In this document: piece by piece, positions 14,280 to 27,166 of the stretch
Position numbering within the stretch: the stretch's first letter is position 1
How the letters are laid out: each line of letters opens with the position of its first letter
Origin: Caenispirillum bisanense
GTDB taxonomy: Bacteria; Pseudomonadota; Alphaproteobacteria; Rhodospirillales; UBA2165
Direction of reading: 5' to 3'
DNA length: 32,434 nt
NCBI GenBank assembly: GCA_945877815.1
Contig: CAMDWJ010000042.1
Location: 1 to 32,434 of the forward strand
Notes under the pieces: generated by a model
Database searches by the model: none
What the model saw: only the letters and a program-made list of their open reading frames with translations
What the model was told of the DNA's origin: nothing
Made by a program: the position numbers and the translations under genes

Positions 14280-16004
14280 TTAGCCGCGGCCTTGCGCCGT
14301 ACGGACGTTGAGCAGCGCCTGCTGGCCGCCATGCACCTTGTCGAGTGCACGTTCGAGCGCCTTCGGCAGTTGGGCCGGATCGTCGACCGCTTCGCCGTAC
14401 CCACCGCAGGCCTCAATCGTCTTTTCGAAGGCGGGCGAGGGAGCGAGTTCGGTGAGCGGCATCGAGTTGGCTTTCGCTGCATTGCCGTTCGGATACATGC
14501 CCAAGGTGGAGGACTTCACCGCGAACCAGATGTTGTTGTTCGCAACCACGGTCAAGGTCGCCAGCTTGTCGGCACGGCCGACGAAGTGCGCCGCGGTCGG
14601 ACAGCCGAACATATACGAGCCGTCACCTACGACCGTGATGACCTCCCGGTCGCGTGCGGCCAGCTTGGCGCCTAGAGCGCCGCCGAGGGCGAAGCCCAGT
14701 GCGCCCGCGCCGCCGGCAGTCACCCAGCCGCGAGGATCGTTGTGCTCCAGGATGTCCGGATTGACGCCAAGTTCAGAGCAAACGATGCCGTTCTTCGACT
14801 TCACCTCGTTGATGCAGTGCGTCAGCCAGGCATTGTTGATCGGTGACAGGGTTTTCGCCTTTTCGATGGCTGCGGCGCGTTCGGCGTCGATCTTTTTGCG
14901 CTCTTCGCCGAGGCGCGTCTTACGGGCCTCGATGGCGGCCTTCTTGCTCTTCATGACGTCCGCGAGGGCAGCATGCAGAACGACCAGGGTCGGCGCGGCC
15001 GAACCCGCCAGCGGCAGGTCGTTATGGAAGCCACGGAACGGATAGCGCGAATACATCGGATCGGGCGCCAATTGGATGATCTTGGCATCCGCCTTGGGCG
15101 CGGCCACGCGGGGCATCCACGGAACCGGGCATTCGATGACGAGAATGACGTCGGCGTCCTTCACGTAATTGGCCGAGCGGAAACCGAAATTCATGACATC
15201 GCTTGTCAGCATCGACGGATCGCCGACCTGGGTGACTGGGATCGCGTAATCGTTTGCGAATTTGGACAGCGCGTCGAAAAATTCCGCGCCGCCGTTGTGC
15301 TTGCCGGTGATGATCAGCGGGTTCTCCGCGCCGGCCAGCGCCTTGGCGGCGGCTTCAAGAGCCGGCTGCGACGGGATAGCCTGGAAGTTGCCCAACGGGC
15401 GATCCGGCACGTAATTGCCGAGGCTCTTGATATCGTTGCCCAGCACTTCGCGGGGCAGAGTCAGATAGACCGGCCCGCGCGGTTCGGACATGGAAATGTC
15501 GAGTGCCCGTCCGATGATTGTGTCGACCGGCTGGTCGGTGCGCAGCTCATAATCCCATTTCACATGCTCGCGGAGCATGCCGCCCTGGTCAAAATTTTCC
15601 TGGCCCCAGTGGATCAGGCCGTTACGCGAGCCGTGATGTCCGGTCTCGGTCAGCGGCGTACGGCCGGCCATGAGGAGCATCGAGGAATTGTCGCGGGCCG
15701 CGTTCATCAGCATGCATAGAGCGTTGGCGGTGCCGACATTAACATGGACCATGACCGCAGCCGGCTTGCCGGCGATCTGGAAGTAACCCTCCGCCATCGC
15801 GACCGCGACGTTCTCATGTGGCACGGTGACAAACTGCGGTATTTTCGTGTTGGCGCGACGGGAGTTCACGATCCCTTCGATGATCGGGGCGAAGTCGGTG
15901 CCCGCGTTTGCGAAAACATATTCGATGCCGCGATCATAAAGCGCGCCGAGCAGGCCTTGGGCGACGGTGTCTTTGGCGACCGCTGTCTGGGGGGTATCGT
16001 CCAT
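14280..16004 (-). CDS. Thiamine-diphosphate-requiring enzyme (acetolactate synthase/benzoylformate decarboxylase-like)
   Basis: 574 residues from the ATG at 16004 (MDDTPQTAV); another in-frame ATG lies at 16013, and further upstream frame is not protein-like. The N-terminal PYR domain begins GLLGALYDRGIEYVFANAGTD and has the ThDP-activating Glu in VPHENVAVAMAEGY. A central domain follows (about 200-330). The C-terminal PP domain has the cofactor motif GDGSYMFG ending in NNNIWF. A Lys/Glu/Arg-rich stretch near residues 365-395 looks like an inserted helical linker. The family decarboxylates 2-oxoacids or ligates the product; I cannot say which. It faces away from the RidA-UbiD cluster and ends at a shared terminator. 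Confidence 0.85.
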   Translation of the reverse strand: MDDTPQTAVAKDTVAQGLLGALYDRGIEYVFANAGTDFAPIIEGIVNSRRANTKIPQFVTVPHENVAVAMAEGYFQIAGKPAAVMVHVNVGTANALCMLMNAARDNSSMLLMAGRTPLTETGHHGSRNGLIHWGQENFDQGGMLREHVKWDYELRTDQPVDTIIGRALDISMSEPRGPVYLTLPREVLGNDIKSLGNYVPDRPLGNFQAIPSQPALEAAAKALAGAENPLIITGKHNGGAEFFDALSKFANDYAIPVTQVGDPSMLTSDVMNFGFRSANYVKDADVILVIECPVPWMPRVAAPKADAKIIQLAPDPMYSRYPFRGFHNDLPLAGSAAPTLVVLHAALADVMKSKKAAIEARKTRLGEERKKIDAERAAAIEKAKTLSPINNAWLTHCINEVKSKNGIVCSELGVNPDILEHNDPRGWVTAGGAGALGFALGGALGAKLAARDREVITVVGDGSYMFGCPTAAHFVGRADKLATLTVVANNNIWFAVKSSTLGMYPNGNAAKANSMPLTELAPSPAFEKTIEACGGYGEAVDDPAQLPKALERALDKVHGGQQALLNVRTAQGRG

Positions 16005-16190
16005 GTTCCTCATCCCGTTGTTTGGTTGTTGGGCTTGTTTATAGAGGGCCGGGCGTGGGGCGGCAATGCAACAGGCCATCGAACAGCCAGGGAAAAAGGG
16101 CGATTGCCCATACCCGTGACGATCGATCGCTTCTGCGGATTTACATGCGATTCCGCATCGCAGTAGAACCATTTGCAACCCGGATAATCG

Positions 16191-16264
16191 TTGTTGCACG
16201 TGTCTATGTTGGTGTTTAATCACCCGTCCAACGCCCAAGTAATGGGCGGATGGGGTTGATGAGG
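16191..16264 (+). promoter_or_regulatory. Possible promoter, hairpin and ribosome site before the RidA-like gene
   Basis: TTGTTG (16191-16196) and TTTAAT (16215-16220) are 18 bp apart and could be -35/-10 boxes. CGCCCA (16232-16237) and TGGGCG (16243-16248) form a small hairpin in the leader. GAGG at 16261-16264 is 9 nt before ATG 16274, favouring that start over ATGs at 16250 and 16259. The rest of the 269-bp divergent gap shows nothing clear. Confidence 0.35.
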
Positions 16265-23017: not shown

Positions 23018-23839
23018 CTAGCGCAGCAGACCGAAGATCGGGGTTCCCAGCCAGTCCTCGCCCTCTTCGTAGACGAGGAAAACTGCGCGGCGTTTGCGGG
23101 TAAGCATCAGGCCGCGCCCGCAGGCATCGCGACAATGTTCGGCGAGTTCCTTGCGCGACTCAAAGGCAGCGGCCGAGACCGGCTCGTGGAACAAGATTTC
23201 GCAGACGACACCGCGATGCTGAAGAAGGGCCCATAGGTGCGGCATGAGTAGATCCTCGCCGATCCACGGATGGATGCGGCGTTCTTCGATCGGCAGGTCC
23301 GCGCCGGTGATATCCTTCGCATAAACGATGCTGACGGGTTGGACCAAATCCTGCGCGGCCTCGAACAAGGTGCTCTTGAAGGGAAGAACAGTGCGTCCCG
23401 CCGTGCTGGTACCTTCGGCAAAGAGTACAACTGAGCGACCTGTATCGAGCATGTTCGCGATCATCTCGACCTGACCGACGCAGGCACGGCCACGCCGCTC
23501 CACGAACAATGTATTGGCGAGGCGGGCGAGGGTTCCGATGACCGGCCAGGTCGCGATCGAGGCCTTGGCGACGAACGACACTTCGCTCAGCGCGCCGAGC
23601 GCCAGGACATCGAGGTAAGACACGTGGTTGGAGACCAGCAGCGTGCCGGGCGCCGCGACATAGCCTTGCGCGGCGATTTGAACACCGACGATGCGCGCCG
23701 CATTGCGGTGCCACAGACGCACGACGCGCCGACGGGCATACTCGCCCGCCACTGCGACGATTGCGTAAAGGGCGACCAGGCCGATGGTCAGGCCGACAAG
23801 GGCCGCGAGGCGGCTGACGGCGCGCGTATATCCGATCAT
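23018..23839 (-). CDS. olsA: 1-acyl-glycerol-phosphate acyltransferase-like protein, probable OlsA
   Basis: 273 residues. An N-terminal hydrophobic helix (about 8-32) anchors it in the membrane. The PlsC motifs are intact: NHVSYLD gives HX4D with H72 and D77, and LFAEGTST (E142) is the second motif. The ATG overlaps the stop of the upstream N-acyltransferase gene by 4 nt, so the two are translationally coupled. In alphaproteobacteria this pair makes ornithine lipids: OlsB N-acylates ornithine with a 3-hydroxyacyl chain and OlsA O-acylates the lyso-lipid. The gene order and overlap are the main reason for naming it OlsA rather than a general PlsC. Confidence 0.82.
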   Translation of the reverse strand: MIGYTRAVSRLAALVGLTIGLVALYAIVAVAGEYARRRVVRLWHRNAARIVGVQIAAQGYVAAPGTLLVSNHVSYLDVLALGALSEVSFVAKASIATWPVIGTLARLANTLFVERRGRACVGQVEMIANMLDTGRSVVLFAEGTSTAGRTVLPFKSTLFEAAQDLVQPVSIVYAKDITGADLPIEERRIHPWIGEDLLMPHLWALLQHRGVVCEILFHEPVSAAAFESRKELAEHCRDACGRGLMLTRKRRAVFLVYEEGEDWLGTPIFGLLR

Positions 23840-24627
23840 GACGCGAATTGCTCCATCGTGGCGTTGGTGTAGTGGCGCACGTAACGGCCAGGCACCAGTT
23901 GGCTTTCCACCATCAGGCAGACATCGACCGTGTTGAATTCGGGATCTATCACGGCGCCGTCGCCAACCACGCCGCCGACGCGAAGATAGCCTTTGATCAG
24001 GGGCGGGATTTCGCGGATGGCGCGGCGCGCATCGACGCGGTCGGCCGGCAGTTGGGCGAGCGGGATGTGGCGGTCGGCGCGCGCGCGCGGGCTCCAGGCC
24101 GAGGATGCCGCGTTGTGATAGGCGAGGCTAGAAAGCGCGTGGCTCATTTCGGCGAGGTTGGTGCCGGGGAAGCTGGCGCAACCGAACATCAAGGTGATGT
24201 CGTTGGCGACGAGATAGTCGGAGATGCCTTTCCACAGGAGTTGCAGGACCGAGCGGCTGCGATAGGCGGGATCGACGCAGGAGCGCCCCAGTTCCAGATG
24301 CTCGCCGGGATAAGCGCGCAACGGGGTGAGATCGAATTCGGAGTCGGAATAGAAGCCGAGCGCTGCCTTGGCGCGGCCGGCGCGTAGCAGGCGATAGGTG
24401 CCGACCACCTTGGTATTACCGGGTCCTTGGCTGCGGTCGATGATCAGCAGGTGTTCGCAAACGGGATCGAAGGCATCGAAATCGCGGGCGAGGCGGCGGG
24501 CCTCGGCAGTCGGCGTGGCCCCCATGTTTTCAAAGAAGACGCGGTAGCGCAGCGCCTGGGCTGCATCAATTTCGCGTTCGCTGTCGGCCAGCCGAACGAT
24601 AAGATCGCCTTCGACATTTTGGGACAT
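23836..24627 (-). CDS. olsB: OlsB-like ornithine N-acyltransferase (GNAT-type)
   Basis: 263 residues from ATG 24627 (MSQNVEGDLIVRLADSEREI), which has AAGGGA 8-9 nt upstream; the frame stays open far upstream but that part is not protein-like. Typical OlsB features are AQALRYRVFFENMGA, VVGTYRLL, LELGRSCVDPAYRSRSVLQLLWKGI and MFGCASFPGTN. The family transfers a 3-hydroxyacyl chain from ACP to ornithine, the first step of ornithine lipid synthesis. It overlaps the olsA-like start by 4 nt. A TATATT box on the minus strand (24652 to 24647) and the repeated sites at 24680-24745 suggest regulated transcription, possibly by phosphate. Confidence 0.87.
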   Translation of the reverse strand: MSQNVEGDLIVRLADSEREIDAAQALRYRVFFENMGATPTAEARRLARDFDAFDPVCEHLLIIDRSQGPGNTKVVGTYRLLRAGRAKAALGFYSDSEFDLTPLRAYPGEHLELGRSCVDPAYRSRSVLQLLWKGISDYLVANDITLMFGCASFPGTNLAEMSHALSSLAYHNAASSAWSPRARADRHIPLAQLPADRVDARRAIREIPPLIKGYLRVGGVVGDGAVIDPEFNTVDVCLMVESQLVPGRYVRHYTNATMEQFAS

Positions 24628-24679
24628 CCGGCACTTCCCTTCGCAAAATATAGGATTCGATGCCGTCCTTTTTTCAGGT

Positions 24680-24745
24680 TTGCGCGACAAACAAATGTCG
24701 CTCAGGCGACGGACAAATGTCACTTGTGCGACGGATTTGTGACGG
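24680..24745 (-). promoter_or_regulatory. olsB: Iterated 11/22-bp Pho-box-like array upstream of olsB
   Basis: On the minus strand six consecutive 11-nt units run from 24745 to 24680: CCGTCACAAAT, CCGTCGCACAA, GTGACATTTGT, CCGTCGCCTGA, GCGACATTTGT and TTGTCGCGCAA. Units 1, 2, 4 and 6 resemble the TGTCA-type PhoB half-site. On the plus strand GCGAC recurs at 24684, 24706 and 24728, exactly 22 bp apart, and GCGACA/TGTCGC (24684-24701) is a perfect dyad. PhoB control of ornithine lipids is known in rhizobia. The array starts about 53 nt from the olsB ATG. Confidence 0.5.
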
Positions 24746-24776
24746 TCGGCCCCCCAAGCTTGACGAAGCCGCACCC

Positions 24777-24786
24777 TGTCGCGACA
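24777..24786. promoter_or_regulatory. Palindrome TGTCGCGACA before the ThDP gene
   Basis: This perfect 10-bp palindrome joins the same half-sites (TGTCGC, GCGACA) seen in the array at 24680-24745. It sits 30 nt before ATG 24817 and downstream of a possible -35 box, TTGACG (24760-24765). It could be a separate operator for the ThDP-SDR pair. Confidence 0.35.
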
Positions 24787-24816
24787 ACTGTGCATCTGTA
24801 TTGAGGGGGGGATCTC

Positions 24817-26439
24817 ATGGACGGTGCGGACGTCATTGCGGAAATTCTGCGGCGCGAGGGCACGGAATTCATCGCGGCCTATCCGCGCAATCCCTTGATC
24901 GAGGCCTGCGCCAAGATCGGTATCCGCAGCATTCTGCCGCGACAGGAACGGGTCGGCGTCAGCATCGCAGACGGCTATTCGCGCACGACCTTGGGCAAGA
25001 AGATCGGCGTATTCGCGGCCCAGTCGGGGCCCGGCATTGAAAACACCTTTCCGGGCGCCGCTCAGGCCTTCGCCGAGGCCGTGCCTGTATTGATCGTCAC
25101 GGCGGGCACCTCGAACGGGCGCGAATTCGTGGCCCCAGTCTTCAATGCGGTCGACAACTTCCGTCACGTGACCAAATGGGCGACCAAGGTGAGTGACGCG
25201 CGCTTCCTGCCGGCAACCTTGCGGCGCGCCTATCACCAAATGCGTAATGGCCGTCCCGGTCCGGTGCTTCTCGAAATCGCTCAAGAAGTCTGGACGCAGG
25301 AATTCCAGGGCGAGATCGCCTATACGCCGGTCGAGCGTCTGCGCTCCGAGCCCGACCGCGCTGCCGTCGCCAAAGCGGTGAAGATGCTGACCTCGGCCAA
25401 GAACCCGATGATCTGGGCGGGGGCGGGCATATTGCGCGCCGAAGCCACCGCCGAACTCGTGGAACTGGCCGAGCTGTTGAACCTGCCGGTCATGACCACC
25501 AATCCGGGCAAGAGCGGATTTCCCGAAAACCATCCCCTATCGCTGGGCGGTTCTGCCGTCAATCAGCCGCGCCCGATGACGGAATACCTCAAGAAGTCCG
25601 ATACGATCCTGGCGATCGGCTCCAGCCTCACGACCTCGCCGTTCAATCCGAACATGCCAGCCGGCAAGACTGTCATTCACGCGACCAACAACGCCGAGGA
25701 CATCAACAAGGATTATGCGCCGACGCTCGGCATCCTCGGCGACGCCAAGCTTGTGCTCGCCGGTATCCTCGATCAGTTGAAGGCGGCCGGGGCGAAGAAG
25801 CCCAATATGCGCGGCGATGTGAAGGAAGCGAAGGAAGCCTGGCTCAAGGAATGGGCGCCGCAGCTCAATTCCGACGAAACGCCGATGAACCAATACCGCA
25901 TCGTGCGCGACCTGCTGAAGGGCGTCGATCCAGCCACGACTATCATAACCCACGATTCTGGTAGCCCCCGCGAGCAGGTTTTGCCGTTCTGGGAAACCGC
26001 GGCGCCCGGCGGCTATATGGGCTGGGGCAAATCGACCCAGCTCGGCCACGGCCTTGGCCTTGCCATGGGCGCCAAGCTCGCCGCCCCGGATAAGCTGTGC
26101 ATCAACGTAATGGGCGATGCGGCGATCGGCATGGTCGGCATGGATATCGAAACCGCGTCGCGCAACAAGATCCCGATCCTCACCATCGTATTCAACAACG
26201 GTGTGATGGCGGCCGAGCGCGATACCTTGCTGATCTCGACCGAAAAGTGGCGCACCATGGATGTGGGTGGCAATTACTATGAATTCGCCAATGCCTTCGG
26301 CGTGAAAGGCTTCCGCGTCGAGAAGGCGGCCGATTTTCCGAAGGCGCTCGCCGACGCCAAGAAAGTCGTTGCCGGCGGTACGCCGGCCCTGATCGAATGC
26401 ATTGTCAAAGAAGGATACGAGTTCACGCACGCTCGTTAG
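24817..26439 (+). CDS. Thiamine-diphosphate-requiring enzyme (acetolactate synthase-like)
   Basis: 540 residues; a seven-G run (GAGGGGGGG) provides the ribosome site. The PYR domain begins MDGADVIAEILRREGTEFIA and has ILPRQERVGVSIADGYSR, with a Glu in the usual ThDP-activating position, followed by AAQSGPGIENTFPGAAQAFA. A central domain includes NPMIWAGAGILRAEA. The PP domain has VMGDAAIGM and a closing FNNGVM, the GD...NN cofactor motif. It is a distant paralogue of the protein at 14280-16004, with a less conserved cofactor loop (GDAAIG versus GDGSYM). The SDR gene follows 16 bp later, suggesting a two-step route in which a 2-oxoacid-derived product is reduced or oxidised. Substrate unknown. 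Confidence 0.86.
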   Translation: MDGADVIAEILRREGTEFIAAYPRNPLIEACAKIGIRSILPRQERVGVSIADGYSRTTLGKKIGVFAAQSGPGIENTFPGAAQAFAEAVPVLIVTAGTSNGREFVAPVFNAVDNFRHVTKWATKVSDARFLPATLRRAYHQMRNGRPGPVLLEIAQEVWTQEFQGEIAYTPVERLRSEPDRAAVAKAVKMLTSAKNPMIWAGAGILRAEATAELVELAELLNLPVMTTNPGKSGFPENHPLSLGGSAVNQPRPMTEYLKKSDTILAIGSSLTTSPFNPNMPAGKTVIHATNNAEDINKDYAPTLGILGDAKLVLAGILDQLKAAGAKKPNMRGDVKEAKEAWLKEWAPQLNSDETPMNQYRIVRDLLKGVDPATTIITHDSGSPREQVLPFWETAAPGGYMGWGKSTQLGHGLGLAMGAKLAAPDKLCINVMGDAAIGMVGMDIETASRNKIPILTIVFNNGVMAAERDTLLISTEKWRTMDVGGNYYEFANAFGVKGFRVEKAADFPKALADAKKVVAGGTPALIECIVKEGYEFTHAR

Positions 26440-26455
26440 GAGAAAAGGGACACCG

Positions 26456-27166
26456 ATGGTCAACAAAACCGCACTCATCGTCGGCGCCGGTCCTGGGCTC
26501 GGCACCGCACTTGCGAAAAAGTTCGCTTCCGAGGGCTACGATGTGGCACTCGCCGCGCGCAATTTGGACCGTTTGGGCTCCTTGGCCGCGGAACTGTCAA
26601 AAGGCGGGGTCAGGGCGAAGGCCTTCAAAGCGGACGCGACGAACGAAGAATCCATGACGGCGCTATTCGTCGATGTCGAAAAATCATTGGGTCCGATCAC
26701 GGTCGTTGTGCATAACGTCAATGGCCGGGTCGTCAAAGATCTGCTCGATCTGTCCGTCGCCGACATGGAGAGCCAGTGGCGGTCCATTTGCCTCGGAGGC
26801 TTCCTGACTGGTCGCGAGGCCGCACGTCATATGCTGCCGCGCGGAGCCGGAACCATCGTTTATATCGGCGGCCGGGGCGGCCGTCGCGGAATCGCCAAGT
26901 TCACGGCATTCGGATCGGCCAAGGCAGGAGTACGTTCGGTGGCCGAATGCCTCGCGCGCGAACTGGCTCCTTCGGGTATCCACGTTGTCCATATTGCCGT
27001 CGAGGCGACGATCGGTGGTCCGAGAGCCAACGCGGAGCAAGTCGCCAAGGATGCGGTCGTCGATCCCACGGCGCTTGCCGAGGTCGTCTACCAGACACAC
27101 ATTCAGCCCAAGAGCTGCTGGGCGTTCGAGGTCGACCTGCGGGCCTGGTCGGAAGCCTTTCTATAA
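26456..27166 (+). CDS. Atypical short-chain dehydrogenase/reductase
   Basis: 236 residues from ATG 26456, behind an AGGAGAAAAGGGA purine tract and 16 bp after the ThDP gene. The Rossmann dinucleotide motif is GAGPGLG (residues 10-16), and ALAARNLDRL fits cofactor selection. The usual active-site Tyr-x3-Lys reads FGSAK (F152, K156) and the preceding Ser region reads IVYIGGRGG, so the classical Tyr is missing. The segment ELAPSGIHVVHIAVEATIGG resembles a divergent SDR branch that also lacks the Tyr. It may use another proton donor or be a non-catalytic binding protein. The pairing suggests it acts on the ThDP enzyme's product. Confidence 0.8.
   Translation: MVNKTALIVGAGPGLGTALAKKFASEGYDVALAARNLDRLGSLAAELSKGGVRAKAFKADATNEESMTALFVDVEKSLGPITVVVHNVNGRVVKDLLDLSVADMESQWRSICLGGFLTGREAARHMLPRGAGTIVYIGGRGGRRGIAKFTAFGSAKAGVRSVAECLARELAPSGIHVVHIAVEATIGGPRANAEQVAKDAVVDPTALAEVVYQTHIQPKSCWAFEVDLRAWSEAFL

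Follow-up and report, generated by a model that had tools for sequence, protein, structure and literature searches.

Between olsB and a divergent gene for a ThDP-dependent enzyme lies a 189-bp intergenic region (24628-24816) with a repeated sequence, which raises the question of what reads the repeat and which of the two genes it serves. An earlier note on this DNA offered two answers: that PhoB controls ornithine lipid synthesis from an unusually long array, or that a different regulator links membrane lipid remodelling to the ThDP-SDR pathway. The window, that is, the whole stretch of 32,434 nucleotides from Caenispirillum bisanense that was analysed, is contig 42 within an 84-contig genome of 3.98 Mb. 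From the sequence and its comparison with related genomes, we consider it probable that the region holds an activating array of six predicted tandem PhoB half-sites, the equivalent of three 22-bp Pho boxes, upstream of olsBA.

Layout and conservation of the repeat

OlsB and OlsA were the top NCBIfam matches of the two minus-strand proteins, though below the curated cut-offs, and their Pfam domains scored above theirs (Table 1); the two names are well supported, not certified. NF004807, the family matched by the divergent enzyme, is named merely thiamine pyrophosphate-requiring protein. Between the window genome and G002, a genome of the same genus and the nearest relative in the comparison, the ThDP enzyme is 90.7% and the SDR 82.6% identical (24817-27166 and L016), and OlsA only 58.8%; conservation is much higher in the neighbouring ThDP-SDR pair than in the lipid gene. 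Judged by its translation, a second ThDP-dependent enzyme, acetolactate-synthase-like, lies inside the window at 14280-16238 (minus strand), near xanthine-dehydrogenase-like and UbiD-like frames.

Table 1. Features of the olsBA-ThDP locus. Positions are those of the window; scores are from the pst-derived half-site matrix.
Feature	Position	Strand	Remarks
olsA	23018-23839	-	lyso-ornithine-lipid acyltransferase-like; NF052553 E 4e-54, 183.5 of 300 (under cut-off); PF01553 over cut-off
olsB	23836-24627	-	L-ornithine N-alpha-acyltransferase-like; NF052555 E 2.4e-83, 279.9 of 320 (under cut-off); PF13444 over cut-off
CCTATATTTTGCG	24642-24654	-	possible -10 region of olsB; G002 keeps ATATTTTGCG
block GCAAACCTGAAAAAA	24669-24683	-	olsB end of the array; identical in G002; possibly belongs to the core promoter
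half-site 6, TTGTCGCGCAA (core GTCGC)	24680-24690	-	4.3; G002 core identical
half-site 5, GCGACATTTGT (core GACAT)	24691-24701	-	-4.2 alone; G002 core identical
half-site 4, CCGTCGCCTGA (core GTCGC)	24702-24712	-	-1.5 alone; G002 core identical
half-site 3, GTGACATTTGT (core GACAT)	24713-24723	-	-1.4 alone; GAAAT in G002; within the significant phased run
half-site 2, CCGTCGCACAA (core GTCGC)	24724-24734	-	5.2; G002 core identical
half-site 1, CCGTCACAAAT (core GTCAC)	24735-24745	-	9.5, best single unit (own and G002 boxes omitted from the matrix); GTCAT in G002
palindrome TGTCGCGACA	24777-24786		near the ThDP gene; present but not conserved; judged outside the array
ThDP-dependent enzyme gene	24817-26439	+	divergent; NF004807 670.7 vs cut-off 607 (over); neighbour of the array, control by it unsupported
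SDR gene	26456-27166		next after the ThDP gene; short-chain dehydrogenase, no closer assignment

The earlier note had described GCGAC at 22-bp steps, and we found these copies starting at 24684, 24706 and 24728, with a further one at 24781. A 5-mer present in three copies with a constant spacing of 8-40 bp was seen in 16 of 5000 dinucleotide-preserving shuffles of the 189-bp region. The best 44-position self-match at lag 22 was 29/44, which was equalled in none of 5000 shuffles and in none of 1000 when any lag from 8 to 40 was permitted. The minus-strand reading as 11-nt units toward olsB also stood: from 24745 down to 24680, the olsB strand carries six head-to-tail 11-bp units, a GTCAC core followed by GTCGC and GACAT cores in alternation. 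The self-match was 19/44 at lag 11 versus 29/44 at lag 22, and the alternation of two kinds of half-site along the six units accounts for the 22-bp step. The repeat pattern is therefore genuine, and bigger than first described.

All six units are in the same phase in G002, so that the 22-bp period, on whose conservation the earlier note had made its proposal depend, is kept. Identity between the two genomes was 28/30 at core positions 3-7 and 23/36 at the other positions (Fisher p 0.007). Inspection by eye showed four units in phase in two other genera of the family, g2 and g8, the cores being GTCAA, KTCKC, GNMAY and GTCKC. A functionless, chance repetition could draw on the frequency of GCGAC in G+C-rich DNA and on the eight places elsewhere in the genome that match GYGACRN6TGTCRC, but the lag-22 match that no shuffle reached and the shared phase of six units in G002 make this barely credible.

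Likeness to the pst boxes of the family

We found ten pstS promoters in the family of the window genome, each with three GTCAY/GTAAY-type units at an 11-bp pitch, and built a half-site matrix from nine of them; the box of L111, a near-repeat of that of L110, was omitted. The matrix recovered 10/10 pstS promoters, each with its own box left out; of 192 control segments, taken from 24 olsB loci, 9 fired. With the own and G002 boxes omitted, the region upstream of olsB in the window genome gave p 0.003, a statistical likeness to the pstS boxes of the family. Under the same omission, a 3-unit scan of relatives gave p values of 0.010 for both G012 and G001, 0.061 for G011 and 0.072 for G010; of the three genomes of the sister genus g8, G012 was thus significant, and G010 and G011 were not. 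The top-scoring run of G001 in the order-wide scan fell outside the array. In the order search, olsB was found in 7 of 24 family genomes.

Phased arrays recur upstream of olsB across the order. At the 11-bp pitch and p<=0.05, 31 of 70 sequences fired and 39 did not, compared with 3, 7, 8, 6, 5 and 12 of 70 at pitches of 8, 9, 10, 12, 13 and 14 bp and with 10 of 70 on the opposite strand. Counted by genus, 17/48 fired at the 11-bp pitch versus 2-7 for the controls. The 70 sequences comprised those of the window genome, G002, G001 and G010-G012, 24 loci from the order search and 40 fetched regions; they are part of the 157 olsB-bearing genomes among the 248 of that search, picked for spread over genera. 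In a count made without any matrix, pairs of GTCRY on the olsB strand peaked at 22 bp (eight sequences), followed by 11 and 33 bp (four each), and on the other strand at 42 bp (six) and 9 bp (four), all of these being small counts that include the window genome and G002. Examples are CTGTCATAAAT CTGCAACAAAA at L244, GCGTCATAAAA and ACGTCACGAAA with 22 bp between them at L187, and CCGTCGCAAAT CCTTCGTCGAA CCGTCATCGAA at L211, where the GTCGC type of the window stands beside a canonical unit. A second matrix, made from the olsB runs of 11 other genera that had first been chosen using the pst matrix, picked exactly the six window units, with p at its floor of 0.001. By eye, 7 of 12 rhizobial loci (L033, L034, L036, L043, L045, L047 and L051) have GTCAN-N6-GTCKY upstream of olsB, pairs at an 11-bp pitch that resemble half-sites 1 and 2 of the window.

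Scoring with a PhoB matrix, which the earlier note had proposed as a check, gave a divided result. Half-sites 3, 4 and 5 scored below zero singly, yet the phased run was significant (p 0.001-0.003), and half-sites 3-6 gave p 0.001-0.003 when half-sites 1 and 2 were removed. The scores of those first two units (9.5 and 5.2) resemble those of the boxes before phoX (9.3, 8.0 and -1.5) and a plcP-like gene (10.8, 5.6 and 5.7) and are lower than those of pstS (14.7, 8.1 and 14.9). The three negative single scores count against PhoB, as does the G in place of A at position 6 of half-sites 2, 4 and 6; A occupies this position in all 27 pstS half-sites that went into the matrix, although the first scan for them had rewarded A over G. 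This G is kept in G002, which makes simple decay unlikely. It may lower affinity and so make olsBA late, or may point to a different regulator from the same structural family.

A full PhoB site is described as two tandem half-sites with TGTCA tracts (PMC6194859). The strict pattern GTCAY-N6-GTMAY was absent from the intergenic regions of the window genome and G002, and within a 22-bp box a GTCA tract was present in half-site 1 alone, its partners being GTCGC. Since GTCA does not occur in both half-sites, the array falls outside the strict Pho-box definition; we class it as a variant that would work like a Pho-box array.

Triple GTMRY at 11 bp, which served only for finding candidate boxes, was hardly enriched (9 matches versus 6 in the reversed control in the window genome, 3 versus 3 in G002). 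After reading their context we accepted three of the nine as boxes, those of pstS, phoX and the plcP-like gene, and left out the remaining six (an overlapping pair at C6:71494, and those on C10, C37, C56 and C61). YGTCRC-N4-YYGTCRC had 51 matches in six genomes, 15 of them in the window genome (control 4); the 14 of these that are not at olsB coincide with open frames 80 codons or longer, which at so high a G+C content is a weak sign of coding, and 6 of the 36 matches in the other genomes were inspected. A separate observation concerns L175 at about 1501-1540 (G000:C6:71494-71531, minus strand). Between frames that read, from their translations, as transaldolase-like and PriA-like, it has a perfect 11-bp tandem repeat, GTCACATAGCG, with four copies of GTCACATAG. 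This repeat has the PhoB-type pitch and core, yet could be a plain tandem repeat.

Which regulator, and for which gene

The window genome encodes PhoB (TIGR02154, 340.1 bits versus a cut-off of 296.2). Its gene is downstream of pst genes, with pstC over the cut-off of TIGR02138 and with frames read as phoR, pstS, pstA, pstB and phoU; immediately past phoB there is a cytochrome-c-peroxidase-like frame (L107 10436-11587, from its translation). A triple box precedes PhoX (PF05787), and G002 has a similar frame, read from translation, with boxes. Another triple PhoB-type box stands before a metallophosphoesterase-glycosyltransferase pair (L184 1-1520; G000:C43 near 10702), which we infer to be PlcP-Agt. 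The presence of PhoB and of triple boxes at PhoX and at the PlcP-Agt-like pair makes a PhoB-run lipid-replacement programme plausible in this genome.

The reader of the array could also be, in place of PhoB, a different member of the OmpR/PhoB structural family of response regulators, one whose half-site is of the GTCKC type. The genome has ten matches to the DNA-binding domain of this family (one containing stops), and the position-6 G of three of the six units, conserved in G002, is unlike the pstS, phoX and plcP-like boxes. However, GTCGC and canonical GTCAT units occur together in olsB arrays of other genera (L211 and L227), and the matrix that detects these arrays derives from pstS boxes. 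No exact match to the CtrA motif was present here. The published CenR site, TGA-N8-TGA (PMC9275681), and ChvI site, GCC-N8-GCC or TTGC-N3-GCAA (PMC9731502), had no exact match on either strand in the window genome or G002. We therefore regard another regulator of this family as unlikely.

A regulator that binds dyads, such as one of the RegA/ActR/PrrA redox type, would instead read the inverted repeat GYGACA-N6-TGTCRC, present twice at a 22-bp step. The sequence GCGACAAACAAATGTCGC is indeed a perfect dyad, with a near-perfect one after it. Yet G002 keeps the GTCGC arms while the other arms change (GTGAA and ACGAC), and the eight places with the dyad pattern elsewhere in the window genome appear to be coding by eye. 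RegA/ActR/PrrA sites have the RegR-type motif GNGRCRTTNNGNCGC, to which there was no exact match and from which the dyad spacing differs; the cognate sensor family NF033792 (RegB/ActS/PrrB) was over its cut-off in none of the six genomes searched for it. This reading is very improbable. ChvI, CenR, CtrA and RegA-type sites were all rejected for want of an exact motif match.

The link to the ThDP-SDR pathway found no support here. The palindrome reported at 24777 is present, but it aligns to TTGTCGCGGC in G002, where TTGTCGCG is kept and the palindrome is lost, and we rejected a ThDP link based on it. Among 51 related olsB loci, we found the divergent ThDP-olsB pair in that of G002 and nowhere else (1/51; four of the 51 hold less than 1.7 kb upstream and could hide a ThDP neighbour). 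The 11-bp arrays also precede olsB in other genera, which likewise argues against a regulator that joins lipid remodelling to this pathway. A bidirectional switch that also controls the ThDP-SDR pair would be compatible with PhoB. It would fit the conserved divergent arrangement and ThDP enzyme, as well as a TTGACG (24760-24765) that G002 also keeps, 14 bp past the array toward the ThDP gene. The half-sites, however, point to olsB, and the ThDP strand was not significant (p 0.081). With the loss of the palindrome and the rarity of the ThDP neighbour, we find such a switch quite improbable; shared control with the ThDP pathway is possible but unsupported.

PhoB acting on olsBA is thus the part of the earlier proposal that computation favours, through the 11-bp phasing, the pstS-derived matrix with its spacing, strand and segment controls, the conservation within the genus and the presence of PhoB and PhoX; binding by PhoB is predicted. 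A sigma-70-like promoter was looked for in 24560-24860 and not found, a result in keeping with an activated promoter. A terminator candidate at 24697-24710 was rejected (one found versus a mean of 0.5 in shuffles). Under phosphate starvation, PhoR would phosphorylate PhoB, which would load head to tail, starting with half-site 1 and the unit next to it and then filling the weaker GTCGC and GACAT half-sites cooperatively toward the poor core promoter. The filled array would turn on synthesis of the phosphorus-free ornithine lipid, and the weak half-sites may give olsBA a higher threshold than pst. A weak PhoB site (KD 4.9 uM) is reported to work at high PhoB, in that case as a repressor site (PMC6194859).

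More tentatively, the alternation of GTCGC and GACAT might be a selected second dialect of the Pho box in this genus, with olsBA read either by PhoB, from half-sites that are weak by design and act cooperatively, or by a PhoB-like paralogue whose code is GTCKC, and with replacement of membrane phospholipid set at a separate, later threshold than phosphate uptake; we hold this possible but doubtful. The array offers a concrete case in which the phosphate-starvation response may take its order from the quality of half-sites and not simply from their presence. A further lesson is that a pst-box matrix undervalues such sites when they are scored half-site by half-site, and that the 11-bp phase recovers them. 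PhoB-type control of ornithine lipids, reported in rhizobia and predicted in Burkholderia, would be carried to a broad sample of the order of the window genome; among the matches listed in the open-licence literature, judged by title and start of abstract, we found none on PhoB control of olsB in this order.

Comparison with known systems

The E. coli-type Pho box is described as CTGTCAT(A/T)4CTGTCAT, 22 bp with two 7-bp direct repeats and 4-bp A/T-rich spacers (PMC4832192, PMC4971064). The window array shares the 7+4 bp direct repeats at an 11-bp pitch, their orientation toward the gene and, in half-site 1, GTCA. It differs in having six units, G at position 6 of units 2, 4 and 6, GACAT in units 3 and 5, and less A/T-rich spacers. 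The ten pstS boxes of the family also consist of 11-bp half-sites on the strand of the gene, but they have three units, A at position 6 throughout and A-rich spacers. Next to these the array is long, as the earlier note had it, but runs of four to five units were seen by eye before olsB in L187 and L240, and its length is less unusual among olsB promoters.

PhoB is reported to activate ornithine-lipid genes, and in Agrobacterium a putative Pho box stands before olsB (PMC3972451); of 43 Burkholderia sensu lato genomes, 21 have a predicted Pho box upstream of this gene (PMC7814305). These share with the window the gene and the proposed regulator and belong to a different order or class; the comparison is by their published description, not base by base. 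PhoP of M. tuberculosis is reported to have a higher affinity for three or four repeats than for two (PMC4832192). It is another regulator with another motif, but, as described there, it occupies series of more than two direct repeats, spaced by 4 bp, in a cooperative manner, much as is proposed here for the six half-sites upstream of olsBA.
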